Of a stretch of DNA of 64,000 nt, positions 11,310 through 23,790 are shown one piece after another. This stretch comes from Sphingopyxis sp. H053 (GTDB taxonomy: Bacteria; Pseudomonadota; Alphaproteobacteria; Sphingomonadales; Sphingomonadaceae). Within the stretch, counting starts at the first letter, position 1, and every line of letters starts with the position of its first letter. The stretch is from positions 1 through 64,000 of the forward strand of contig NZ_LNRU01000012.1 in NCBI RefSeq assembly GCF_001468225.1, read 5' to 3'. The notes below the pieces were generated by a model. The model searched no databases and had not been told where the DNA came from. It saw only the letters and a list, made by a program, of their open reading frames with translations. Made by a program: the position numbers and the translations under genes.

Positions 11310-12053
11310 ATGCCGACGATGGACGCTGCGCATGCTTTTGCGCTCGACGTCACGCGGGTGAAGGATGCGGCGGGTCTGGCCGATCTGCTGGCGGAGGCCT
11401 GCGCGCGCATGGGCTGTTCCTGGTTCGCGCTGAGCCACCATGTCGATTTCCTCGCGGCTCCCGACAGGGGTGTTCGCGTCCACAACTATCCCGAGGATTG
11501 GGCCCGCTGGTTTGACGAGCGCGGCCTAGGGCTTACCGATCCGGTGCATCGCGCCAGTCACCGCAGTCTCGAGGGTTTCTTCTGGCGCAACATGAAGCCG
11601 CTTTCGGGCGAACGCCCCGAGGACGAACTGGTTCTCAGTGAGGCGCAGCGGCACGGAATAGGAGACGGGCTTACCATACCGGCGCATATTCCTGGCGAGG
11701 CGCATGGTTCGGTGTCCTTCGCCTGGACGCCGGGGATCGCCGCGAATGATATGGCGCTCCTCTTTGCCCGAATGATCGGTGGGCCAGCCTTCGAAGCCGC
11801 GCGGCTGCTCGCCAATCCCGAACTCGCGCAGGTCGGGCCGCGGCTGACGGACCGCCAGCGCGAATGTCTGATCTTGTCCGCCAAAGGCAACAGTGCCCCG
11901 AAGGTTGGACGCATCCTCGATCTCAGTCCCGACACGGTTCGCGAGCATCTTCGCAACGCGCGGCAGCGTTACGACGCGAATGGTGGGATCACGCTGACGG
12001 TGCGCGCGCTTTATGCCGGCGACCTCAGCTACGAGGATATCGCCAAGCGCTGA
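11310..12053 (+). CDS. LuxR-family autoinducer-binding regulator
   Basis: 247 residues. The N-terminal AHL-binding domain shows the signature positions of TraR-type proteins: W in DWARWFDE, the DP pair in LTDPV, W in GFFW, and Gly in GIGDG. The C-terminal GerE-type helix-turn-helix is LTDRQRECLILSAKG...SPDTVREHLRNA. It lies 91 bases upstream of an AHL synthase gene, forming a LuxR/LuxI pair. In ICEMlSymR7A such a pair drives element transfer through FseA; the same wiring here is an inference. The start could also be the internal ATG three codons later. Confidence 0.85.
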   Translation: MPTMDAAHAFALDVTRVKDAAGLADLLAEACARMGCSWFALSHHVDFLAAPDRGVRVHNYPEDWARWFDERGLGLTDPVHRASHRSLEGFFWRNMKPLSGERPEDELVLSEAQRHGIGDGLTIPAHIPGEAHGSVSFAWTPGIAANDMALLFARMIGGPAFEAARLLANPELAQVGPRLTDRQRECLILSAKGNSAPKVGRILDLSPDTVREHLRNARQRYDANGGITLTVRALYAGDLSYEDIAKR

Positions 12054-12144: not shown

Positions 12145-12762
12145 ATGCTTTCGGTAATCGACCATTCCAACCGCGCGCACGAGCATCAATTGCTCCGCGC
12201 GATGTTCGAGGCGCGTAAGCGCGTCTTCATCGATCTTCTGAAATGGGACCTGCCGGTGCTCGCCGACCGGTTCGAGATCGATCATTTCGACGATCCCCAT
12301 GCGACCTATCTGATCGTCGGCGATCAGGAGGGCGGGCATCTCGCCTCGGCGCGCCTCCTTCCCACCACGCGCCCGGCTCTTCTCGATGGTCTCTTCCCCG
12401 GCCTCGTCGACGGCATCCCGCCGTCCGGCCCCGACATCTTCGAGATCACGCGCTTCTGCCTGTCGCCGGGGATCGGTGCGCGCCAGCGCCGCACCGCGCG
12501 CGACACGCTTCTTGTCGGGCTGGTAGACTATGCGCTCGCCAACGGCATCCGCTCCTACACCGGCGTCGCAGAGCTCGACTGGTTCGCTCAGATCCGGACC
12601 TTTGGCTGGGACTGCAAGGCGCTCGGCGAAGCCGGCATTTACGACGGCCGCGCGCTGACCTCGCTGCGGATCGAGATCGACGCCGACACCCCCGCAAGGC
12701 TCAAGTCGGCGGGGATTGTTTCGGGCAGCGCTGCGACGCCGGTCGCGGCCAATGCAGCGTGA
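12145..12762 (+). CDS. acyl-homoserine-lactone synthase (LuxI family)
   Basis: 205 residues. It carries the invariant LuxI-family residues: Arg and Phe in ARKRVF, Trp in LKWDLP, the Asp pair in EIDHFDD, Arg in ASARLLPTT, and Glu and Arg in FEITRFCL. It makes an N-acyl-homoserine lactone from SAM and an acyl donor; the acyl chain cannot be predicted here. The start is preceded by AAGGAG lying in a hairpin. The dioxygenase-like gene follows after 13 bases, so luxI, the dioxygenase gene and the GntR gene probably form one operon. Confidence 0.88.
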   Translation: MLSVIDHSNRAHEHQLLRAMFEARKRVFIDLLKWDLPVLADRFEIDHFDDPHATYLIVGDQEGGHLASARLLPTTRPALLDGLFPGLVDGIPPSGPDIFEITRFCLSPGIGARQRRTARDTLLVGLVDYALANGIRSYTGVAELDWFAQIRTFGWDCKALGEAGIYDGRALTSLRIEIDADTPARLKSAGIVSGSAATPVAANAA

Positions 12763-12775
12763 AAGGAGCGGGACC

Positions 12776-13687
12776 ATGATTACCGATATCGCTCCAGTCG
12801 ATAGCCACCAGCCGCCCTCTGCTTCGATGCGGGCGCTCAAGGAAAACGGCTACGCGATCGTTCGCGAAGCCGTTCCCGCCGAGCTGATCGCGGCGATCGA
12901 TCGCGACCTCGATCCGCGATACGCCGCGACGCCCTTTTGCGAGGGCGGCTTCTATGGGACACGCACCAAGCGCTTCGGCCGCCTGCTCATCCGCTCGCCG
13001 CATGTTGGCGCATTGGTCATGAACCCGGCGATCCTCGCCCTCGCCGAGGCCGCGCTCGGCGACTGGTGTGAGCGCATCCAGCTCAATCTCGCCCAAGCGA
13101 TTGAGCTGCATCCGGGAGCGCTTCCGCAATTCCCGCACCGCGATCAAGATATGTGGCAGGGCACACTCGGTGAGGTCGAATATCTCGTGAATGTGATGTG
13201 GCCGCTGACGCCCTTCACCACCGAGAATGGCGCCACGATCATCTGGCCGAAAAGCCATGGGCTCGAGGCGCTCATCGAGGAACCGGCGGAGGAGCCGATC
13301 ATTGCCGAGACCATGCCGGGCGATGCCATCGTCTTCCTGGGTTCGACGCTCCACGGAGCCGGCGGCAATTGCAGCGCGTCGGTGCGGCGCGGGATCATCA
13401 TCAGCTACTGCCTTGGCTGGCTGAAACCATATGAGAACCAGTGGCTCGCCTATCCACCCGACGTCGCGAAGGACTTTCCGCCGGAGCTGGCGGCCTTGAC
13501 CGGCTATGTACAGCATCGCCCAAACCTCGGCAACTTCGAGGGCCAGTGTCCCTCGATCCTGTTCCGCGGCTATCCCCCCGACCCGATCGCAGCCGTTGAT
13601 GCGCTCCGGCCCGACCAGCAGGCGCTTCTTGCCGACTATATCGGCGACCAAAGATCGGCGGGCGGAGACGGGACGCTCGCGGCATGA
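12776..13687 (+). CDS. phytanoyl-CoA dioxygenase (PhyH) family protein
   Basis: 303 residues. A Fe(II)/2-oxoglutarate oxygenase of the PhyH family: iron ligands HRD (FPHRDQDMWQ), the distal His in STLHGAGGN, and the 2-oxoglutarate Arg in VRRGIII. The start has AAAGGAG upstream. It sits between luxI and a GntR gene, joined to the latter by an ATGA overlap. It might modify a signal, or tailor the lasso peptide encoded just downstream (PhyH-type enzymes hydroxylate small molecules and peptides). Both roles are guesses from position. Confidence 0.75.
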   Translation: MITDIAPVDSHQPPSASMRALKENGYAIVREAVPAELIAAIDRDLDPRYAATPFCEGGFYGTRTKRFGRLLIRSPHVGALVMNPAILALAEAALGDWCERIQLNLAQAIELHPGALPQFPHRDQDMWQGTLGEVEYLVNVMWPLTPFTTENGATIIWPKSHGLEALIEEPAEEPIIAETMPGDAIVFLGSTLHGAGGNCSASVRRGIIISYCLGWLKPYENQWLAYPPDVAKDFPPELAALTGYVQHRPNLGNFEGQCPSILFRGYPPDPIAAVDALRPDQQALLADYIGDQRSAGGDGTLAA

Positions 13688-14322
13688 GCCCGGGCACCAC
13701 GATGGAGCGGGTCTATCTGGACCTCAAGGCGCGTATCCTGTCGGGCACCTATCCGCCCGGTACGCGCCTCGAGGCGGCGCAGCTCGCAAAGTCGCTGGCG
13801 GCCAGCGCTACCCCCGTTCGCGATGCCCTGTATCGCCTGTCGGGCGAGCGGATCATCGAGAGCTGGCATCAGGAGGGGTTTCGGCAGCCCCTTCTTAATG
13901 AGGCGGATTTGGTCGAACTCTATTGGTGGACCGGCGCCCTTCTCTCGCTGGCGTTGAAGGGGAGGACGCCGAGGCCCGATTTGCCAGGCGGACTGATCTC
14001 GCTCGCGAATCACCAGGCCTATCCTGAGGGGCTCAATGGCCTCTTCCGGACCATCGCAATCGGCAGCAGCAACGGCGAACTTCGCGCTACCATCATCAAT
14101 TGTGTCGAGCGAAGCATGACAATCCGCACATTGGAGGTTCGTGTCGATGGGTCTGTGGGCGACGCGCTCACGGCGATGGCGGACGATTACCGGTTCGGTC
14201 GATGGAGCGCTTTACGCAGTAAAATCACGCGCTTCCATCGCCGCCGCGCGTCATATGCCGGCCGCGTCGCGGCCGAAATCCGGCGCCGGTCCGAGCCGCT
14301 GGATAATATTCGGAGAATATGA
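13684..14322 (+). CDS. GntR-family transcriptional regulator (FCD-like)
   Basis: 212 residues. The N-terminal GntR winged helix is clear (MERVYLDLKARILSGTYPPG, then AASATPVRDALYRLSGE). The C-terminal part is helical and shorter than a full FCD domain, with weak family motifs. It overlaps the dioxygenase gene by ATGA and ends 82 bases before the first lasso precursor. A palindrome overlapping its 3' end may be its own operator, which would make it the local regulator of the lasso genes. This is inferred. Confidence 0.7.
   Translation: MSPGTTMERVYLDLKARILSGTYPPGTRLEAAQLAKSLAASATPVRDALYRLSGERIIESWHQEGFRQPLLNEADLVELYWWTGALLSLALKGRTPRPDLPGGLISLANHQAYPEGLNGLFRTIAIGSSNGELRATIINCVERSMTIRTLEVRVDGSVGDALTAMADDYRFGRWSALRSKITRFHRRRASYAGRVAAEIRRRSEPLDNIRRI
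14306..14320. promoter_or_regulatory. palindrome ATATTC-GGA-GAATAT before the lasso genes
   Basis: A perfect 6-bp inverted repeat with a 3-base spacer, overlapping the last codons of the GntR gene and lying 85 bases upstream of the first precursor ATG. Its half-site matches the repeat at 11125-11147, though the arms face the opposite way. Candidate operator in the lasso promoter region. Confidence 0.4.
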
Positions 14323-14404
14323 GTCGTATTAAATTCCTATACGGCGCGGCCTCCCTAGCTTCGAGAGGGCCGCAATTCCGCGGCAATCATGGAAGGAAGC
14401 GATC

Positions 14405-14527
14405 ATGGACCGCGAACTCAATGAGTTGATCGAACTCGGCAGCGTTACCGGCGACACCGCGGGCAGCGAAGACGTCGGCATCGAAACGAACGGCAAGTTC
14501 AAGCCGCTCGGACTCAGCCAGGACTGA
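14405..14527 (+). CDS. lasso peptide precursor 1
   Basis: 40 residues, preceded by GGAAGG. The leader is residues 1-19, ending ELGSVTGDTA with Thr at position -2 of the cleavage site, the hallmark of lasso leaders. The predicted core starts at Gly20: ring GSEDVGIE closed between Gly1 and Glu8, then tail TNGKFKPLGLSQD. Total core 21 residues. Length, leader motif and core plan match precursor 2. B and C enzymes follow on the same strand, and an isopeptidase is encoded next to them. The product is a class II-type lasso peptide (N-terminal Gly, no Cys). Cleavage and ring size are predicted from motif, not shown. Confidence 0.85.
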   Translation: MDRELNELIELGSVTGDTAGSEDVGIETNGKFKPLGLSQD

Positions 14528-14535
14528 CCAGCGCT

Positions 14536-14564
14536 CCGGGGACCGGCCCGAGGCCGGCCCCCGG
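14536..14564 (+). terminator. strong hairpin after lasso precursor 1 (attenuator or stabiliser)
   Basis: Arms CCGGGGACCGGCC (14536-14548) and GGCCGGCCCCCGG (14552-14564) pair over 13 positions with one mismatch and a 3-base loop. It begins 9 bases after the precursor stop. There is no long U tract, so partial termination or mRNA stabilisation is likelier than full termination. Confidence 0.6.
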
Positions 14565-14595
14565 TCGTTTCCTTGTGTCTGAGAAGGGAAGCAAC

Positions 14596-14718
14596 ATGGA
14601 ACGCGATAACGACACGCTCGTCGAACTCGGCTCGGTCTCCGGTGACACCGCCGGCGACTGGGGCCTGTATGTCGAAGCCGGCGGCCGTATGCCGACGCCC
14701 GGTCTCGTCCAGGACTGA
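14596..14718 (+). CDS. lasso peptide precursor 2
   Basis: 40 residues, preceded by AGAAGGGAAG. The leader (1-19) ends ELGSVSGDTA, almost identical to precursor 1, with Thr at -2. The predicted core is ring GDWGLYVE, closed Gly1 to Glu8, plus tail AGGRMPTPGLVQD. Total 21 residues. The two cores share the end GLxQD and the ring size but otherwise differ strongly, so one enzyme set should make two distinct lassos. A candidate steric plug is Arg or Met in the tail; which residue acts is not predictable. Confidence 0.85.
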   Translation: MERDNDTLVELGSVSGDTAGDWGLYVEAGGRMPTPGLVQD

Positions 14719-14774: not shown

Positions 14775-15434
14775 ATGACGACCGGCTGGAAACTGGCAAC
14801 CGGAACGGGCTATTGCGAAGTCGACGGAGATCTCGTCTTCCTCGACCTTGTCCGGGACAAATATTTCGCGCTGCGCGGGCAAGACCGCGCGGCCTTCGAG
14901 CGGCTTCGGGCAGGCGAGCCGAACGACAGCGAGGCGATGGGGCGTCTTGTGGCGACAGGATTCCTCGCACGGTCGAGCGAGCCGACGAAGCTCGATCCGG
15001 CCTCGCCTCACATTCCGGCCAACGATTTGTCGGCGGTCGCCGACGGACCGACATCGCTCCGCATGGGTTTCGCAGCGTCCCGCGCGCTGCGCTGGGCAAG
15101 ACGTTCGATGCGGCCAAACCGGATCGCGTCAACGGTGGAAGCCATGCGGAACGCAAAGCTTCGGCTCGGCGTGCCGGGCGCCGAAGCGGCGGTTCGGGGC
15201 ATCGCTTCATCCTATGCAGCATCGCGCTGGATGGCGCGGACCCCGCCACGATGTTTGATCGACGCGCTAGCGCTCGACCACATCCTCCTGTCGCACGGCC
15301 TAGGCGCGCGGCTGGTTTTTGGGGTGCGTCTCAGCCCCTTTGCCGCACATTGCTGGTTACAGAGTCCCGGCGCGGTGTTGACCGGAACCTCGGCCGAGGC
15401 CCGCAACTTCACACCAATATTGGCGATCGGATGA
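14775..15434 (+). CDS. lasso peptide leader peptidase / RRE fusion (B protein)
   Basis: 219 residues. The N-terminal 70 residues are a PqqD-like RiPP recognition element (DGDLVFLDLVRDKYFALRG). The C-terminal 140 residues form a transglutaminase-like Cys protease: Cys160 in PPRCLIDALAL and His192 in AAHCWLQ. The acidic third residue is not obvious. It binds the leader and removes it before cyclisation. This is the fused B1-B2 arrangement found in proteobacterial clusters. It overlaps the C gene by ATGA. Confidence 0.85.
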   Translation: MTTGWKLATGTGYCEVDGDLVFLDLVRDKYFALRGQDRAAFERLRAGEPNDSEAMGRLVATGFLARSSEPTKLDPASPHIPANDLSAVADGPTSLRMGFAASRALRWARRSMRPNRIASTVEAMRNAKLRLGVPGAEAAVRGIASSYAASRWMARTPPRCLIDALALDHILLSHGLGARLVFGVRLSPFAAHCWLQSPGAVLTGTSAEARNFTPILAIG

Positions 15435-17131
15435 AACGCGGCATTCTCGCACTTGTGGGAACCACGTCCGGGGGGCTGGCGCTTGCGGCAGCTGCCGAGC
15501 GCCACGCATTGCGATGCGTTCAGAATGCGGGCGCACTGACCGTCTATGCAGGCGCCGGCATTGCTGACCAAGTGATGGAAAGCGGTGCCCTATTGCTCGG
15601 GGACATTTATTCGCTTTCGGGCGCTACCTGCCACGCGCCCGGCGACGGCTGGGGAAGCTATCTGGCCTTCACCGTCGACGATGCATCGGTCGAGATCGCG
15701 CGCGCCGCGCTCACCGGCATGCCGATCTACTGGACCCGGTTTGAAGACGGCTTTCTGCTTTGGAACGATCTCGAGCTGGTCGCGCCAATGCTTGGCATCG
15801 GGTCATTCGATTGGCAGTTCATCGCCGGGACTTTGGCGTACGCCAATCTGCGGACCGAACGGACCGGGCTTGAAGGTGTGAGCGAGCTATTGCCCGGCAG
15901 CTGTGCCAAGTTTTTGGCCGAGGAGTCAGCTGTCCAGACTTTGTGGACGCCTTGGAAGGCTGTCTCGCAGCCCGATCTTCGACCAGTCGCTGAACTTGCG
16001 CTAGACCTCGAACGTCGGTTCCTTGGGTGCTTGCGAGGCTGGTGTGGGAATCGGAGCGACATCCTGCTCGAGCTGTCGGGCGGACTCGACTCTTCGATCG
16101 TCGCGGCAGGCCTGTCATCGGCGCAAGCCAATTTCTCTGCCGTCACTTTCGTTTCGTCCGGTGCCGACGGCGACGAGCGTCCCTACGCGCGCGCCGTCGC
16201 GGCGCATTGCGGTGCTGAGCTTCTCGAAATGCCCCACGCGGATACCGGCATCGATCTGGTATCGCTACCGCCTGTCCTTCACGCGCGGCCCTCCGCCTAT
16301 GGCGTGCTCGGCGGGATCGACGATGCCTTCGAATCGGCGTTCCCCGTTTCCGATGCCGCGATCTTCGGGGGCATCGGTGGGGACAATATCTTCGATTTCG
16401 ACACGAGCGTCGCGCCGATCCTCGACGCCTTTCGTCATTTCGGGCCGCGGCGCCCTGCATTCGAGACGATGCGCGACGTCGCGCGCGCGGGCGATGCAAC
16501 GGTCTGGCAGGCCGCTCGCTTGGCGTATCGGGCGGTGCGGGACGGCCCGAGCGGCTGGCGCCGTGAGACCGGCTTCTGCGTCGCGGACCAGGTGCCGGCC
16601 TCGCCGCCGGCTCATCCCTGGGATGCGGGCGAGGAGGATGCGCCGCGCGGCAAGCGCAACCATGTGCGCGCGCTTCGGCGCATCCTCGACTTCGTCGACC
16701 GGCCGCGCCGCTGGCGGGACCGCGATGTCGTAGCGCCGCTGCTTTCACAGCCGGTGGTAGAATTTTGCCTTACTGTTCCGAGCTGGGCGTGGGTGAGGGG
16801 CGGTCGCGACCGCGCGGTTGCCCGCGCCGCATTCGCGTCGCGACTTCCGCCGGAGGTCGTTTGGAGGCGCGGCAAAGGGCGGCTCGATTCCCTCTGTACC
16901 GCAAGCTATCTTCGCCAGCGCGGTGCGCTCGCCGACCTCCTGCTCGGCGGGCGGCTGGCGGAACGCGGGCTGCTGGACAAGCCTGCGATCGAGACCTACC
17001 TCGCGCACGATCTCGTCGAGGGCGACTTCGCCTATTTCCGGCTGCTCGAAATCGCCGATGTCGAACGTTGGGTGCGGTCGGTAGAAGCCTCGCCCTTGAT
17101 GGGGCCGAGCAGCCGCCAGCGACGATACTGA
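15431..17131 (+). CDS. lasso peptide macrolactam synthetase (asparagine synthase-like C protein)
   Basis: 566 residues. An N-terminal glutamine-amidotransferase-like domain without the catalytic Cys2 (it starts MKRGILALVG) is followed by the asparagine-synthetase domain. That domain has the ATP-pyrophosphatase loop SGGLDSS at residues 216-222 and FGGIGGDNIFDFD downstream. It adenylates the Glu8 side chain and closes the ring on Gly1. The last 100 bases overlap the convergent isopeptidase gene. Confidence 0.87.
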   Translation: MKRGILALVGTTSGGLALAAAAERHALRCVQNAGALTVYAGAGIADQVMESGALLLGDIYSLSGATCHAPGDGWGSYLAFTVDDASVEIARAALTGMPIYWTRFEDGFLLWNDLELVAPMLGIGSFDWQFIAGTLAYANLRTERTGLEGVSELLPGSCAKFLAEESAVQTLWTPWKAVSQPDLRPVAELALDLERRFLGCLRGWCGNRSDILLELSGGLDSSIVAAGLSSAQANFSAVTFVSSGADGDERPYARAVAAHCGAELLEMPHADTGIDLVSLPPVLHARPSAYGVLGGIDDAFESAFPVSDAAIFGGIGGDNIFDFDTSVAPILDAFRHFGPRRPAFETMRDVARAGDATVWQAARLAYRAVRDGPSGWRRETGFCVADQVPASPPAHPWDAGEEDAPRGKRNHVRALRRILDFVDRPRRWRDRDVVAPLLSQPVVEFCLTVPSWAWVRGGRDRAVARAAFASRLPPEVVWRRGKGRLDSLCTASYLRQRGALADLLLGGRLAERGLLDKPAIETYLAHDLVEGDFAYFRLLEIADVERWVRSVEASPLMGPSSRQRRY

Positions 17132-19005
17132 TCGGCCTTCGCTGGATCGGGGTCGATCTCGCCTTTGAGCCAGAAGCGGAACCAGTCGAGATTGCGCTCA
17201 TAGGCCGCGAGCTTCTGGCGGGGTTCGACCTTCAGATGCGGGGCGAGGGGGAAGAGGTGGGTCTCGCCGAGACCGTTGGTAGCAAGCTTGCTCATCAGTT
17301 CGGCCGACTGGCGCGCTTCGCTCTCGGGAAGTTGCAGCAGCATCGGCGCCGTGATCATATCAATATTGAGCGCGGCCGAAAGCGCCTGCCACTCGGCAGG
17401 TTCGGTATCCGGCGGGCCGAGCTTCCAGTTCTGCCGGATATTGCGGGCGAATGTCTCGCGGCCCGGGCGAGCATTGTACCAGTAATACGTGGGTTCGATC
17501 TGGACCGAGGCGATCGAAACCGCCTTGAGAAGATCGCTGTGCATGGCAGTCCATACCGCAACCTCGCTTCCGAAGCTGAGACCGCCCATGCCGACGCGGC
17601 TGCGATCTATCGTTCCGCGCCGGTCGAGGGTGTCGATCGCGGCCCGCACGGCTTCCATGCCGATCTGGTAGCGATCCTGCGCGATCTCGCCGCCTGGGAG
17701 GACGTCGATGCAGAGCGATGCGATGCCGCCCGCGGCAAGCGCGCGCAGAGGCCATTCGTCGCCTGTTCCGCCGCGCAGATATCCATTGCAGCGATAGTAG
17801 GTGACGAAGAGCGGCAGCCGCCCGGGGATCTTCGGGCGGATGAGTATGCCCGACGCACGGCTGCCGCTCACCTGCCACGCGATCGTTTCGACAAGGAGCC
17901 CGTCGCGGCCAGGAAATGAATTTGGGGAATCGATGATCTTCTTGCGGCCAGAGGCCTCGATCCGGACGAGGCGGGGTGAGACCGACGCGGCCGCCTCGAC
18001 GCAAAAGATTGCTTTTTCGCCTGCAGCGCAGGGCTTGCTGTCGCTCCGCCCACTCGAGAGCTGTCCTGCCGAGACCGCGATCATCTTGAACTTCGCCGAC
18101 GCGGGCGTCCACACATGCAGGGTCGTTTGGCCCGATTGGGCGCGGAGTGCGATCAGGACGCGGCCGTCGGCAAGCCCGCTCCGCCATGCGATACGCTCCG
18201 CATCGTTCGGGCAGCCGCTCGCCGCGACGCAGACGCCGCGCTGCCGAAGAATGCCGCGGAGGCTTTCGGGGATGTCCGGCCCGGGCGCCGGCTTGAGCAG
18301 GGCGCGTTCAGCGTCGTTCGCCGGGCGCTCGCTGGTGCCGGATGCGTCTCGGGCAACGACAGCGCGCGGTGTATCTTCGAGCAGCGGCACGCGGTCGAAC
18401 CAGTCACCAGAGAAGCGCTGCGTCGAAGGACGTCCATTGATTGAGGCGCCGCGATAGAGGGGTTGGGCAAGATCGACGCGCGCGTCGAACAAGATACCGG
18501 TGTCGCGCTCGGCCTCCTCTGCCCGCGCGATCGCATCGCGCGGAGGTCCTTCGCGCGAGATGACGGTACCGTCAGCGGCGATGGCAAAGGCCTCGATTTC
18601 GCCTTCGCTTGGCCCGATCTCGTGGAATCCCGACCCGTCGATGGGACTCACCCACAGGCCGATTCGTCCGTCGACAAGGGCACGGACAACGACTGCCTTG
18701 CCGTCGGGCATCCATGTGGCTTCGCCGGGCAGGACGCTCCCGGCGTCGTTCCACATCGCGGTGCCGAGTCGTCCGAGCGCGCGGGGAGGGGCGGTGGCGT
18801 CCGTGGGCGCTAGATACCAGTCGATATCGATCCGGTTGGTGACGGTGGATGGGCGCTCGACCCGATAGGCGATCCAATTTCCGTCAGGAGAGACCGCGAG
18901 CCCCGACAGGTCGGCAATCTCGGCGATTTCGCGCGGGGTCGTCTGGCTGGCCGCGGGCGATGCCGCGGCCAGGAGACAGCCGAGGATCGCGGCTTTGCTC
19001 ACCAT
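17032..19005 (-). CDS. lasso peptide isopeptidase (S9 family)
   Basis: 657 residues from the ATG at 19005, which begins a signal peptide (MVSKAAILGCLLAAASPAASQ). The upstream in-frame extension lies inside the receptor gene. The beta-propeller-like N-terminal region is followed by an alpha/beta peptidase domain with the nucleophile in GMGGLSFGSE and a C-terminal His in PLAPHLKVE. The acidic residue may be the Glu in LPESEA; isopeptidases such as AtxE2 are recalled to use Glu here. It cuts the isopeptide bond and linearises imported lassos. Start and receptor stop overlap, so translation is coupled. Confidence 0.82.
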   Translation of the reverse strand: MVSKAAILGCLLAAASPAASQTTPREIAEIADLSGLAVSPDGNWIAYRVERPSTVTNRIDIDWYLAPTDATAPPRALGRLGTAMWNDAGSVLPGEATWMPDGKAVVVRALVDGRIGLWVSPIDGSGFHEIGPSEGEIEAFAIAADGTVISREGPPRDAIARAEEAERDTGILFDARVDLAQPLYRGASINGRPSTQRFSGDWFDRVPLLEDTPRAVVARDASGTSERPANDAERALLKPAPGPDIPESLRGILRQRGVCVAASGCPNDAERIAWRSGLADGRVLIALRAQSGQTTLHVWTPASAKFKMIAVSAGQLSSGRSDSKPCAAGEKAIFCVEAAASVSPRLVRIEASGRKKIIDSPNSFPGRDGLLVETIAWQVSGSRASGILIRPKIPGRLPLFVTYYRCNGYLRGGTGDEWPLRALAAGGIASLCIDVLPGGEIAQDRYQIGMEAVRAAIDTLDRRGTIDRSRVGMGGLSFGSEVAVWTAMHSDLLKAVSIASVQIEPTYYWYNARPGRETFARNIRQNWKLGPPDTEPAEWQALSAALNIDMITAPMLLQLPESEARQSAELMSKLATNGLGETHLFPLAPHLKVEPRQKLAAYERNLDWFRFWLKGEIDPDPAKADQYRRWRLLGPIKGEASTDRTQRSTSAISSSRK

Positions 19006-21935
19006 CGGATGGTGGCCTGGAGCGACATCATGCGGCCGAGCGGGCTCGCCTTCTCGGGGTCGTAGCCGAGCGCGGACGACACGCTGCGGTTGTTCACATA
19101 GGGCGGATCCTTGTCGAACAGGTTGGTGATTCCAAGGCTGAGCCGCAGGCCCCGCCCTTCCACGCCATCGCCGCCCCCGATGCGCTGCGAGATGCTGAGG
19201 TCGAACGTGGTCCAAGAACCGACCCGCTCCATCGGCGTCACGACCTGGTTGAGATAGCCGTCGATGTAGTTGACGAAGGCATTGGCCGAGAAGCCGCCCG
19301 TCGCCCAACCGAAGCGACCGCGAAGGCGCCATTTGACCGGCTTGGCATAGGTGCCGACGACATCGACCTGCGGCCCGCCCGGAGTCAGTTGCTGTTTTAT
19401 CGAGAAGATATGCGTGCCCGCGATGCCGAGGTCGAGCGTTCCGCCCGCGAATGCGGGGGAATAGCCGACATCGAAATCGATCCCGCGCTGGCGTTCGGCG
19501 GCGAGGTTGCGGATGCGACCGTCCAGGATCGCGGCGACCTGGCCCGGCGCGATGTTTGCTGCGTTCACGAAGCTGGGACGTGCGAAATATCCCTCTACCA
19601 GTGCCAGCGACGGATTGTCGGTGATCAGCCCGCCGAAGCGCGCCCGGTCGACAAGAAAGCGGGTGTAATCCTCGCTCGCCGTCCCGATGCGGTCGCGATA
19701 GTCGACGTCATAATAGGTGACCGACGCCTTGAAACCGGCAAGCGACGAGGGGGCGACGTCGATGCCCGCGGTCCAGGTCGTCGCTCTTTCGGGACCTACG
19801 TCCGGTGCATAGCCGAACAGGCCGAGTATGTTGGTCGTGCCCGTCGGCGAAGCGGGGTCGGGGACCGCTTCGGTCTGAAACAGCGAAATCGCCTCGCCGA
19901 TGAGCTCGTCGAAGGCGGGCGCGCGGAAGGATTTTCCGTAGGACCCGCGCAGCGCAATGCCCTGGAACGGTTCCCATCGGACGCCGACCTTGGGATTTTC
20001 GCTTCGGCCGACGTCGCTGTATTTCTCGGCGCGCCCGGCCAACGAAATGTCGAGCCTGCGGAAACCCGGCATCCCGTTATCCGGCCCGAAGACCGGCACG
20101 AGCAGTTCAGCATAGGCTGCGCGAACCTTCCGCACGCTCGGAATGATGTCGAATGGGTCGGTGAAGGGCGTCGCGAGGCTGAATCCGTTGACGGTGTAAT
20201 AGTCGAAATTCTCGCGGCGATACTCCGCGCCGATCGCGAGCCGGACCTCGCCGCCGGGCAGGCGGAAGAGCGGGCCGTCACCGCGGAGCGCCGCCGACCA
20301 GCTTTCGAAATCATTGACCGACTGGAATGTGCCGCGAATGCTGTCGATGGTGACCGGATTGTTTGCGGTGCCGTTTCCGAAGACGTTGAATGCGGTTGCT
20401 CGGTTGGTGTCGGCAAGCGCCGCAGCAAGGCGCGGGCGATTGACGAGATTGGCCTTGTTCGCGATGCCGCGCTGATGGCCATAGGCGCCGCCGACCTGCA
20501 CGCGCCAGCGGCCAATTTCCTGGTCGAAGCCCGCTGAGGCGGTGAGGCCGCGCGCCCGGCCGCTGTCGATCTGCGGTCCCAAGTCGTTCACGAAGCGATA
20601 GGCGACGCTGACCGGCTGGTTCGTGCCGATCGGATCAACGTAGAAAGGATTGGTAACCGGCACCCGCGCGGCCTGGATGAAGTCTCCGGTACTGACGCGG
20701 CTGTAGCGGCGCTGCGCCGCGAGCGCGCTTGCGCGAAAGGTCAACGTGTCGGTAAGGTCGAATTCGGCAGCGGCATAAAGGCTGTGAATGCGCGTTCTCG
20801 GCAAAATGTCGCTGTTCACGCGACCGTCGTAGCGGTTCTGGACACCTGGAATCAGCTGAGCGGCAGTCAATGCGCGGCCGTCTTGTCCGGCCGGGATGCC
20901 AAACCGCTGTCCATTCGCGGCCGTAATCGTCCCGGGCACCGCGAAGTTGGTCCGATAGTCGGGGCCTCCGAAGGCCCGCAGATCCTCGCGCGCGAAATCG
21001 CGGGAGGCGCCCGCGAGCGCACCGCGCTGCGAGTATTGGTAAGCAAGCACCAGCCGTGCGCCGCCGAAGTCACGACCAAAGATTTGGCCGAACTGCAACT
21101 CGGTCGTATCGCCATCGGCGGTGCCCGCGCGCAGCATTGTCTCGGCTCCCTCGAAGCGACTCCGCATCCGCACGTTCACCACCCCGGCGACCGCGTCGGC
21201 GCCGTAGATCGCCGATGCGCCGTCGATCAGCACTTCGATCCGTTCGACCGCGCCTACCGGGATGAGCGAGATGTCGGCGAAGACGCCGCCGATCCCGCCA
21301 AGCGCTGGGCGCGCATTGTCGATGAGGACGAGGGTCGACGAGGTCCCGAGGCCGCGCAGGTTGATGCTCGAGCCGAAAGTCGAATCCGAACCCCCGCCGT
21401 TCCGGGTCGTGGTCGTCGAGACTGCCTCGTTGGGGCCGCCGCCAAATGCCTGTGGCAGTGATTGGAGCATCTGCTGAACAGTGCCATAGCCGCTCTTTTC
21501 GATGGCTTCGCGGTCGATGGTGACGACCGGAGAACCGGTCGGTCCTGCACCGCGAATGCGCGAGCCTGTAACGATGATCGCTTCGCCGTTCGTCTCAGTC
21601 GATCCAGTCTCCCCGGCATCGACGTTTCCCGAGCGAAGGACCCATGCGCCTTCGACGAGTTCGATCGTCAGGCCCGTGCCGGTGAGGAGTCGGGAAAGGG
21701 CGGCGTCGGGAGAGAGTCGCCCGCGGACACGGTTGCTGCGTCGGCCTTCGAGCAGGCTCGAAGCCGCGATGACCTCGCGGCCGGAAATGTCCGAATATTT
21801 GCGAAGTGCGTCGCTAAGGCGCTGACCCTCGATATTGTAGGTCTGCTCGCCCGTCTGCGCACACGCGCTGGGTGCATAGAGTGCGGTCGCCGAGACGCCC
21901 GAAGCCAGAACGGCCGCGAAAAATTTCATCGTCAT
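18999..21935 (-). CDS. TonB-dependent receptor with STN domain (lasso cluster)
   Basis: 978 residues. A signal peptide (to about residue 26) leads into an STN secretin/TonB short domain (residues about 34-100, YNIEGQRLSDALRKYSDISG). The plug follows, starting GEAIIVTGSRIRGAG, with a beta barrel to the C terminus ending TIRW. STN receptors sense ligand and signal through FecR and FecI, both encoded directly upstream. In sphingomonad lasso loci this receptor is thought to import the lasso peptide or a siderophore-like ligand. The isopeptidase follows by overlap. The start has GGGAGGG 8 bases upstream. Confidence 0.85.
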   Translation of the reverse strand: MTMKFFAAVLASGVSATALYAPSACAQTGEQTYNIEGQRLSDALRKYSDISGREVIAASSLLEGRRSNRVRGRLSPDAALSRLLTGTGLTIELVEGAWVLRSGNVDAGETGSTETNGEAIIVTGSRIRGAGPTGSPVVTIDREAIEKSGYGTVQQMLQSLPQAFGGGPNEAVSTTTTRNGGGSDSTFGSSINLRGLGTSSTLVLIDNARPALGGIGGVFADISLIPVGAVERIEVLIDGASAIYGADAVAGVVNVRMRSRFEGAETMLRAGTADGDTTELQFGQIFGRDFGGARLVLAYQYSQRGALAGASRDFAREDLRAFGGPDYRTNFAVPGTITAANGQRFGIPAGQDGRALTAAQLIPGVQNRYDGRVNSDILPRTRIHSLYAAAEFDLTDTLTFRASALAAQRRYSRVSTGDFIQAARVPVTNPFYVDPIGTNQPVSVAYRFVNDLGPQIDSGRARGLTASAGFDQEIGRWRVQVGGAYGHQRGIANKANLVNRPRLAAALADTNRATAFNVFGNGTANNPVTIDSIRGTFQSVNDFESWSAALRGDGPLFRLPGGEVRLAIGAEYRRENFDYYTVNGFSLATPFTDPFDIIPSVRKVRAAYAELLVPVFGPDNGMPGFRRLDISLAGRAEKYSDVGRSENPKVGVRWEPFQGIALRGSYGKSFRAPAFDELIGEAISLFQTEAVPDPASPTGTTNILGLFGYAPDVGPERATTWTAGIDVAPSSLAGFKASVTYYDVDYRDRIGTASEDYTRFLVDRARFGGLITDNPSLALVEGYFARPSFVNAANIAPGQVAAILDGRIRNLAAERQRGIDFDVGYSPAFAGGTLDLGIAGTHIFSIKQQLTPGGPQVDVVGTYAKPVKWRLRGRFGWATGGFSANAFVNYIDGYLNQVVTPMERVGSWTTFDLSISQRIGGGDGVEGRGLRLSLGITNLFDKDPPYVNNRSVSSALGYDPEKASPLGRMMSLQATIRW

Positions 21936-22022: not shown

Positions 22023-22943
22023 CTACTCGGATTTCGCGCCGAGAATCGGTCCGTTCGCACCGAACTCGACCTTGAGATCGAGCGCGGCGCCGAGCTTCAG
22101 CGCAAGTTTCCGGGCATCGGTCATGTCGAAGCGTCCCGTCACCTGCAGCGATGCCAGCGCCGGATCGGCCAAGCTGATCTTGACGCCATTCTCGCGGCCA
22201 GCGCGGTCGAGGATCGCGCCAAGCGGGAGATTGTCGGCCCACAGTGATTTGGCCGGGGCGTTCGCCTCCTCGCTCTTGATCGTCTGGGGGCCGGTCGACC
22301 TGACCTCGGCGCGTTCGCCGGGGCGGAGGCGAAGTGCCTTTCCGCCTTCGAGGCGCCGCACTTCGACCGAGCCTTCGACCAGCGCGATGCGCGGAACATC
22401 CGCGCGGAGATCGACCTCGAAGATGGTGCCGAGCGCGCGCGTGACCGAATCTCCGGCCTCGACGAGAAAGGGACGCGACGCGTCGTGTGCGACCTCGAAC
22501 CTGGCTCGGCCGTCATACAGAATGACGCGGCGTTCGCCGTCCGAGAAGCGCGTCTCGATGCGGGCGCCGTCCATCAGCGTCACGCGCGTCCCGTCGGCGA
22601 GCTGGCTCTCGCCTTGCGCCGAATTGGTGGCGATGATCGGCTGATCGCTGTCGCGGCCGACCAGATACCAGGCGAACCCGACCGCGATCACCGCAGCGAG
22701 AATTGTGGCAAAAGCCCATCGCCGCCCGCCGGGTTCACGCTCCCGGGCATCGGCCCGAACATCGGCCTCGATCCGGGACGGCGACATCGCCGCAGACCAG
22801 TTCCAATTGTCGCGCGCTTCGTCATAGGCCTTGGCGTTGTCCGGCTTGGCCAGCCATTCGTCGAACGCCGCCCGGTGCTGGTCGGCATCGGGGCCCATCA
22901 TCTTGTCGAGCCAGGCGGTGGCTTCGCTTTCGGCGCGGCTCAC
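22023..22943 (-). CDS. FecR-type anti-sigma regulator
   Basis: 306 residues, GTG start in a GTGA overlap with the sigma gene. An N-terminal cytoplasmic anti-sigma part (DUF4880-like: WLDKMMGPDADQHRAAFDEWLAKPDN) is followed by one membrane helix (about 76-93) and a periplasmic FecR domain (LADGTRVTLMDGARIETRF). A secretin-like C-terminal repeat (LPLGAILDRAGRENGVKIS) is present. It carries the receptor signal across the inner membrane to the sigma factor. Its gene lies 87 bases before the receptor gene. Confidence 0.85.
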   Translation of the reverse strand: MSRAESEATAWLDKMMGPDADQHRAAFDEWLAKPDNAKAYDEARDNWNWSAAMSPSRIEADVRADAREREPGGRRWAFATILAAVIAVGFAWYLVGRDSDQPIIATNSAQGESQLADGTRVTLMDGARIETRFSDGERRVILYDGRARFEVAHDASRPFLVEAGDSVTRALGTIFEVDLRADVPRIALVEGSVEVRRLEGGKALRLRPGERAEVRSTGPQTIKSEEANAPAKSLWADNLPLGAILDRAGRENGVKISLADPALASLQVTGRFDMTDARKLALKLGAALDLKVEFGANGPILGAKSE

Positions 22944-23518
22944 TGCTTACCCCGCGCGCGCTTGATGGCGGCAAGGGCTTTGGTCATGTGGCTTTCGACC
23001 GTCTTCACGCTGATTCCCTTGATTCGAGCGATCTCGGGATAGCGTAGTCCTTCGAAGCGATGCATCAGGAAAATCTCGCGCGTGAGCGGAGATAGCCTCG
23101 AAATGGCTCTTTCTGCCCGGCGAAGGACGTCGCGCGCTTCGAGCGCGGCGTGCGGGTCGCTCGCTCCCTCATGCTCGTCACTGAAACTGTCGTGCTGCGA
23201 CCGGTGACGGCGCCCGTCGGCGCGACCATATTCGGCGAGGAGCATCCGGGCGCTCTTCACGAGATAGGCTCCGGGGCCTTCGACCAGCGCAGCGAGGCCG
23301 CCGCGCGCGCTCGCAAAGCGGCTGAAGACTTCCTGCACAAGGTCGCCGACATCTTGGGTCGGCGCGCGGCTCTTGAAGAAGCGGGTTATTTGGGGGCGGT
23401 GTTCGGAGTAGATCGCCTCGATGCGCGCCGATCGGCCGAAGCGCTCCCAATCCTCTGGCGGCAAGGGGTCGCCGCCGGCAATACCCGGTCGCTCGCTGTC
23501 CTTGTCCTCGAAGTCCAT
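22940..23518 (-). CDS. ECF sigma factor, FecI type
   Basis: 192 residues from the ATG at 23518, which has GGAAGG upstream; a TTG further upstream (23584) is less likely. Region 2 reads IYSEHRPQITRFFKSRAPTQDVGDLVQEVFSRFA. Region 4 reads LSPLTREIFLMHRFEGLRYPEIARIKGISVKTVESHMTKAL, split here for reading. Together with FecR and the STN receptor it forms a cell-surface signalling unit that probably transcribes the receptor-isopeptidase genes when the ligand is bound. The 272 bases upstream (23519-23790) hold no gene; promoters were not resolved. Confidence 0.85.
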   Translation of the reverse strand: MDFEDKDSERPGIAGGDPLPPEDWERFGRSARIEAIYSEHRPQITRFFKSRAPTQDVGDLVQEVFSRFASARGGLAALVEGPGAYLVKSARMLLAEYGRADGRRHRSQHDSFSDEHEGASDPHAALEARDVLRRAERAISRLSPLTREIFLMHRFEGLRYPEIARIKGISVKTVESHMTKALAAIKRARGKQ

Positions 23519-23790
23519 ACCTGCCGCCTTCCCGTTCGGGACGAAGGCGGCAAGCCGGGCGTTGAGAACTTGCTTAGCGAACAAGCGCCGCCGCCTTTAG
23601 CCCGAGGGCTTGGACATGCGCAGCGGCCACCCGGCAGGATGGAATAGGAAAACTAAGCTAAGCAGGTTCTCACGCCTGGCACCGTGCGCCTTGCCCGATG
23701 CACCTCAAAGCATAGCTTTGCCCCTGTCGCTTGCAAGCCGGCTGTGCGGAGATAGGTCCAGATCGAGTCAAATTCCTGCGGACCGCGAGG

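Follow-up and report, generated by a model that had tools for sequence, protein, structure and literature searches.

Genetic Setting of the Locus

The window (the whole 64,000-nt stretch that was analyzed) comprises positions 1-64,000 on the forward strand of contig NZ_LNRU01000012.1 from Sphingopyxis sp. H053 (GCF_001468225.1) and was matched over its entire length by two further genomes (G001 and G333) at 99.97-99.98% identity. It carries two predicted lasso peptide precursors, their maturation enzymes, an isopeptidase, and a TonB-dependent receptor, with genes in the order LuxR-LuxI-PhyH-GntR directly upstream of the first precursor (Table 1). A tRNA search over the window gave no hit and comparison of a plasmid collection with the window returned partial matches only. 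At least 142 kb around the locus was 99.1-99.7% identical between G001 and G333 compared with 91.6% for rpoB, indicating that a large block had moved between species. To the right of this block the identity drops to 82-87%, and its left end lies beyond the compared stretch. As judged from these identities, the region shared by G001, G333, and G318 is a recent transfer of a large block.

Table 1. Features of the lasso peptide locus and its surroundings (positions in the window).
Feature	Position	Strand	Remarks
ParB-like and toprim/DUF7146 genes, plasmid kind	6440-9817		like genes at 78% on a Sphingopyxis plasmid
LuxR-type regulator with autoinducer-binding domain	11310..12053	+	PF03472 86.2 bits, PF00196 32.3 bits
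LuxI-type acyl-homoserine-lactone synthase	12145..12762	+	PF00765 70.5 bits; Arg24, Phe28, Trp34 present
PhyH-type dioxygenase	12776..13687	+	PF05721
GntR-type regulator	13684..14322	+	PF00392
GCCGCAATNCCGCGGC dyad upstream of A1	14369..14384	+	exact in 29/33 loci of the same kind
A1, lasso precursor 1	14405..14527	+	leader 19 aa, core GSEDVGIETNGKFKPLGLSQD, predicted ring Gly1-Glu8
A1-A2 spacer, GC-rich stem-loop	14525..14595	+	-35.1 kcal/mol, z -2.43
A2, lasso precursor 2	14596..14718	+	leader 19 aa, core GDWGLYVEAGGRMPTPGLVQD, predicted ring Gly1-Glu8
A2-B spacer, GC-rich stem-loop	14716..14774	+	-32.0 kcal/mol, z -2.56
B, leader peptidase (transglutaminase-like)	14775..15434	+	NF033537 69.2 bits, cut-off 33; PF13471
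C, lasso cyclase (Asn-synthetase fold)	15431..17131	+	PF00733 82 bits, over cut-off; start overlaps B stop
AtxE2-type lasso isopeptidase	17032..19005	-	NF033523 477.1 bits, cut-off 400; AtxE2 5txc E 1.2e-32; 3' end overlaps that of C
TonB-dependent receptor	18999..21935	-	STN residues 56-101, plug 134-252, then barrel; mosaic among relatives
FecR-type regulator, resident flank	22023..22943	-	PF04773
ECF sigma factor, resident flank	22940..23584	-	TIGR02937 72.5 bits, cut-off 42.9

Tandem Precursors and Their Enzymes

A sequence-only reading of this DNA had recognized two lasso precursors in tandem, and both 40-residue open reading frames were recovered, with the leaders MDRELNELIELGSVTGDTA in A1 and MERDNDTLVELGSVSGDTA in A2. 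Both divide as that reading had it into a 19-residue leader ending in ELGSVxGDTA with Thr at position -2 and a 21-residue core with Gly1 and Glu8. Its statement that the cores share only a terminal GLxQD was too narrow, as Gly11 is identical too and Lys/Arg12 is a conservative difference. In an alignment of 22 precursors from 11 loci, the window among them, Gly1, Glu8, and Gly11 never varied, and the core residues G17, L18, Q20, and D21 were kept in 20, 20, 20, and 19 cases, respectively. The benenodin model NF033522 scored A1 and A2 at 21.8 and 25.3 bits (curated cut-off 33 bits) and the subterisin model PF24178 at 20.8 and 23.4 bits (gathering score 27 bits), matches that are below threshold and span nearly the full precursor length. 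These weak matches, together with two precursors before B at the same place in 10 other distinct loci, argue against a chance find. Four relatives each were found for A1 and A2 in protein space at 83-98% identity.

The nearest kin in another locus was the same-position gene for all 22 precursors, such that the duplication predates the divergence of these cassettes. L126-L128, being identical to the window, and L139 and L140, which share their peptides with L137, did not enter this count. In a related kind of locus there is only one precursor, which by tblastn identity resembles A2 more than A1 (e.g., L010, L011, and L012). The gaps in 15 single-precursor loci were only 80-101 bases before the precursor and 42-57 after it, leaving no space for a second one, while atypical precursors could be missed as they were located by motif. 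Three precursors before one B were seen in L017 and L019 from Sphingomonas, also with LuxR-LuxI-PhyH-GntR genes upstream.

The earlier argument that agreeing leaders and differing cores indicate selection on the pair did not suffice by itself; the age of the two positions and the substitutions in A2 are stronger evidence. In four pooled close pairs, purifying selection was clear for A2 (core pN/pS 0.30, Fisher p 3e-6; leader 0.31, p 5e-5) and the counts for A1, with the same direction, were too few for significance (core 0.69, p 0.30; leader 0.53, p 0.08). With pN/pS below 1 (not significant for A1), these pairs show no diversifying selection. Synonymous divergence in the precursor genes was 0.30 of sites, half of the 0.61 in C (L149/L152, L094/L008, L144/L145, and L136/L137), for which either a separate exchange of precursors or a constraint on precursor RNA may account.

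B exceeded the cut-off of its lasso peptidase model, and its residues 1 to ~90, the expected place of the RRE, had no family match in profile searches. C was assigned by PF00733, with the lasso/lactam cyclase models NF033535 and NF033561 below cut-off, and in sequence searches neither B (E up to 0.1) nor C (E up to 0.01) matched a solved structure. The claimed isopeptidase, as in astexin-type loci, was borne out as a member of the AtxE2 family by the family model and by the AtxE2 structure match, and the precursors have the Thr at -2, Gly at core position 1, and Asp/Glu at core positions 7-9 of isopeptidase-associated (astexin-type) clusters. All genes from A1 to the sigma factor gene were accounted for, and none of them codes for a D-type ABC transporter. 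Sphingopyxis terrae NBRC 15098 and Sphingopyxis sp. LC363 carry a B gene identical to that of the window. In L129 and its copy L010, C is interrupted, with two open parts in separate frames (residues 1-303 and 310-551; 440 residues in a separate comparison), reflecting either an assembly error or a broken gene.

Profile matches, the AtxE2 match, and the related loci support the claim of two lasso precursors served by one B/C/isopeptidase set, and on homology A1 and A2 would be cleaved and ring-closed by one B/C pair into two products. Tandem precursors with one enzyme set have been published for caulosegnins I-III, astexins 2/3, caulonodins, and xanthomonins (PMC7549694; PMC13352647), and the pair is therefore ordinary in kind.

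Quorum-Sensing Neighborhood

The LuxI-type synthase retains the residues named for such enzymes (PMC3704786) and lies beside a LuxR with an autoinducer-binding domain; its matches to the NCBIfam AHL-synthase models were below cut-off. The sequence-only reading had made no mention of this neighborhood. Across 298 genomes of the family, lasso B was matched 70 times in 51 genomes, and LuxI was matched in 91 genomes. LuxI was located at most 3.5 kb from 20 of the 70 B matches compared with 0.18 expected by random placement (assuming 4-Mb genomes, and with two second halves of split LuxI matches dropped), and within 20 kb of 35 compared with 1.0 expected; the other 35 had no LuxI in 20 kb and 50 had none inside 3.5 kb. 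All 20 close LuxI genes were upstream and on the same strand as B at 1.2-3.1 kb, including 18 at 2.41-2.72 kb. The complete LuxR, LuxI, PhyH, and GntR set was found upstream of the lasso genes in 15 of 35 loci (L004-L008, L010-L014, L016-L019, and L021), including Sphingomonas loci with B only 30-31% identical. This neighborhood set comprised 34 of 55 loci plus L060, with L009, L015, and L060 cut short upstream.

The adjoining of PhyH and LuxI in sphingomonads and the idea that PhyH is under quorum regulation have been described in a paper whose main text does not contain the word "lasso" (PMC3704786). As this linkage was already known, the proximity of LuxI may reflect one conserved island. 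Hao 2010 is the paper cited for quorum control of phyH. Two LuxI-linked lasso loci occur in one genome in G123 (L094 and L095) and in G316 (L139 and L142), and G001 (L091, L092, and L093) holds four lasso B matches, one at C1:2979199 with another LuxI 1.2 kb upstream and another on a 208-kb contig.

The dyad just upstream of A1 is absent from L130, L147, L154, and L095; its position is close to the left boundary of the exchanged segment in L130/L131, and it is a candidate for either an operator or a 5' hairpin. A second dyad, ATATTC-GGA-GAATAT (14306-14320), overlaps the end of gntR, was kept in several but not all aligned relatives, and is a possible GntR or LuxR operator. The stem-loops after A1 and A2 perhaps limit read-through into the enzyme genes.

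Different Cassettes at One Site

A survey of 79 Sphingopyxis genomes identified PhyH in 57, with at least 87% identity in 11 genomes and a next best value of 77%, bar one partial place at 79%. Flanks were taken for 32 PhyH places, i.e., the 11 at 87% or above and 21 of those at 72-79%. The 11 genomes sharing the window backbone carried six different lasso cassettes at one site: that of the window in four (G001, G318, G333, and G368) and five others in seven (G347 and G327; G306; G311; G366 and G331; and G123). In these seven genomes, DNA identity to the window was 82-97% for LuxR, LuxI, PhyH, FecR, and the sigma factor compared with 42-65% for B, C, and the isopeptidase. The proteins of the five flanking genes were 91-100% identical, except in G123 at 86-99%, and FecR was 93-97% identical in relatives with other cassettes. 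GntR was 97-98% identical in four of the seven, 83% in G123, and 65% in G366 and G331.

The outer flanks matched on both sides, from ~9.1-9.4 kb to the left joint and then through FecR and the sigma factor up to 23.8 kb, with the match resuming at 25.6-26.6 kb where covered and G306 carrying an insert of ~12 kb before the last block. G347 and G327 have their left joint where A1 begins, G306 and G311 have it at the conserved box that immediately precedes A1, and G366 and G331 have it where gntR begins; G123 shows no sharp left joint, with identity already reduced at luxI (82% nt). On the right, the joint is within the receptor gene, where identity falls at about residue 90-120, between the STN domain and the plug; by bins, receptor identity was 95-98% for residues 1-60, 85-88% for residues 61-120, and 35-83% in later bins.

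A second backbone (L136 versus L137/L139) had 98-100% identity in LuxR, LuxI, PhyH, and GntR and 58-70% in B, C, and the isopeptidase, and a third (L135 versus L141) had 97, 93, and 90% in LuxR, LuxI, and PhyH and 29, 32, and 34% in B, C, and the isopeptidase, respectively. In both, the discord is between left flank and cassette only, with FecR missing or 67% identical on the right. The rpoB stretches of the 11 backbone genomes were 89.1-97.6% identical, so that the flanks are no plain marker of the species tree and "resident" here means resident in the island. Ligand synthesis and part of the receptor were thus replaced as one unit within constant flanks. As read from these alignments, the cassette was replaced while the regulators stayed, presumably by homologous recombination.

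Tree Conflict and Core Covariation

The LuxR+LuxI+PhyH tree placed the eight window-backbone rows (seven different) in one clade (SH-aLRT 100), and the tree built from C, the isopeptidase, and the receptor (residue 121 onward) needed six label changes for the window-backbone rows. Grouping these rows in the cassette tree was rejected (AU p 3.6e-93, lnL 4427.5 lower). Both were quick trees, with L126-L128 dropped as their compared proteins are identical to the window and with L133 and L134 as identical rows. Plain divergence of one locus was ruled out by this conflict and by the contrast in identity between cassette and flanks.

Core identity followed the cassette, with Spearman coefficients of 0.81 for B, 0.82 for C, 0.87 for the isopeptidase, and 0.81 for the receptor from residue 131 on, compared with 0.03 for LuxR, 0.11 for LuxI, 0.12 for PhyH, 0.07 for GntR, 0.04 for receptor residues 1-110, -0.05 for FecR, and 0.06 for the sigma factor. 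These coefficients were derived from 28 loci and up to 378 pairs using the best pair of cores, with L126-L128, L140, and L142 (copies or partial) left out, and carry no p-value as locus pairs are not independent.

Identical cores occurred in 12 locus pairs with PhyH below 90% identity, where B was 54-80% identical, and the mature peptide is therefore conserved while the enzymes diverge. Mean identities in these pairs were 64, 72, and 75% for B, C, and the isopeptidase versus 75, 73, and 75% for LuxR, LuxI, and PhyH; the enzymes being about as divergent as these three flanking proteins, the pairs do not point to recent transfer from the sampled backbones and call for old variants or unsampled donors. 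Of the four cassette genes, the barrel was conserved best in all 11 identical-core pairs measured, and also where cores differ, as between the window and L134 or L130 (in the latter, barrel 51, B 27, C 35, and isopeptidase 34%). Reading the conserved receptor barrel as a sign of ligand matching was accordingly dropped. The receptor-core correlation was no higher than those between enzymes and core, and sequence covariation does not single the receptor out. The case for the TonB receptor as the receptor of the peptide comes from its break point, which keeps the signaling domain in place while plug and barrel follow the peptide genes, and from the travel of the receptor part with the cassette.

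Proposed Role of the Cassette

The precursor pair is real and ordinary in kind, and an exchangeable cassette with a mosaic receptor beside a quorum-sensing module is the unexpected part. The comparisons make it probable that precursors, B, C, isopeptidase, and receptor plug and barrel form an exchangeable cassette between resident regulators, with A1 and A2 as its ligand part. The residents would be LuxR, LuxI, and PhyH (and GntR) on one side and the STN domain of the receptor, FecR, and the sigma factor on the other. Acyl-homoserine lactone and LuxR, with GntR, most likely control the lasso operon, and the threaded peptides would exit the cell to be recognized and re-imported by the cognate TonB receptor. 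The signal would pass along STN, FecR, and the sigma factor, and the isopeptidase would linearize the imported peptides inside the cell. A match of peptide and receptor would explain both the joint travel of the parts and the identical cores kept despite enzyme divergence.

To our knowledge, the benefit of isopeptidase-associated lasso peptides to their producers is an open question in the field. We tentatively propose that such peptides may be strain-specific self-recognition ligands, forming a quorum-timed and exchangeable "lasso pherotype": peptide, maturation enzymes, isopeptidase, and barrel would change hands as a single cassette, with the receptor signaling domain, FecR/sigma, and LuxR/LuxI staying to read the installed ligand.

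A less likely explanation is a public good of the siderophore or nutrient type, in which the peptide binds a metal or other ligand, a private receptor retrieves it, and exchange excludes cheaters. Cheater exclusion by exchange has been proposed for pyoverdine. Receptor residues 1-300 resemble FecA and FpvA, FecR and the sigma factor match iron-signaling families, and whole pyoverdine synthetase sets have been replaced by horizontal transfer (PMC11366639). In its favor, five of the 22 aligned cores contain His; against it, none contains Cys, and the two cores of the window have neither.

The cassette may also encode a bacteriocin-like weapon that inhibits close relatives, with the isopeptidase as self-immunity and swapping driven by an arms race, an option that we consider unlikely. 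Cassette swapping does resemble that of bacteriocin loci, which was counted in its favor. Antimicrobial lasso peptides also exist (PMC13352647), but a review connects D with a possible antibacterial role and associates isopeptidases with most proteobacterial clusters lacking D (PMC7549694), and the locus from A1 to the sigma gene lacks such a transporter. An exchanged receptor barrel with FecR and the sigma factor points to uptake instead. That the loci are paralogous quorum-sensing islands at different insertion sites, and not alleles of one site, is very unlikely, since both outer flanks match in the window backbone, even if G123 and G316 each hold two such loci. Least probable, and barely credible, is an ordinary astexin/benenodin-type two-precursor cluster with relatives differing by plain divergence and no unit exchange, which has the known gene content and published tandem precursors on its side (PMC7549694; PMC13352647) and against it the diverged cassette beside conserved flanks in the same genomes and the rejected tree grouping.

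Strains with different cassettes and a similar backbone offer a natural cross-recognition experiment. The LuxI neighborhood suggests conditions for seeking the lasso peptides, and cassettes exchangeable at a single locus bear on the mining of lasso clusters.

Comparison With Known Systems

By title and start of abstract in the open-licence PMC literature, no paper was found that connects lasso peptides either to LuxI in sphingomonads or to the exchange of cassettes, a mention in Hao 2010 being possible. The benenodin and subterisin families (NF033522 and PF24178) have the same precursor shape, with the window precursors below the curated cut-offs. The window cores presumably differ from those of astexin-2/-3 and, as we take it, are other sequences than the sphingopyxins and sphingonodins with their similar xGLSxD-like ends. 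Both "lasso peptide" and "luxI" occur in the text of a Burkholderia paper (PMC6963729).

The astexin-2/-3 cluster of Asticcacaulis excentricus likewise has two precursors, B, C, an AtxE2 isopeptidase, and a TonB receptor on the opposite strand (PMC7549694; PMC11006600). Cassette exchange among relatives sets the window apart from it, and the window also has LuxR-LuxI-PhyH-GntR directly upstream. Sphingopyxins and sphingonodins are sphingomonad lasso peptides that have been expressed in Escherichia coli (PMC7549694). The sphingocin cluster of Sphingomonas BPH is a lasso operon with one described core, compared with two in the window, and with neighboring genes for an isopeptidase and a TonB receptor on the opposite strand (PMC11006600), and the words "quorum," "homoserine," "LuxR," "GntR," and "phytanoyl" are absent from the main text of that paper. 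The pyoverdine loci of Pseudomonas likewise have biosynthesis sets replaced whole by horizontal transfer (PMC11366639). Pyoverdine is a non-ribosomal siderophore, whereas the window encodes predicted ribosomal lasso peptides with an isopeptidase, a LuxI neighbor, and a receptor cut between signaling domain and plug.
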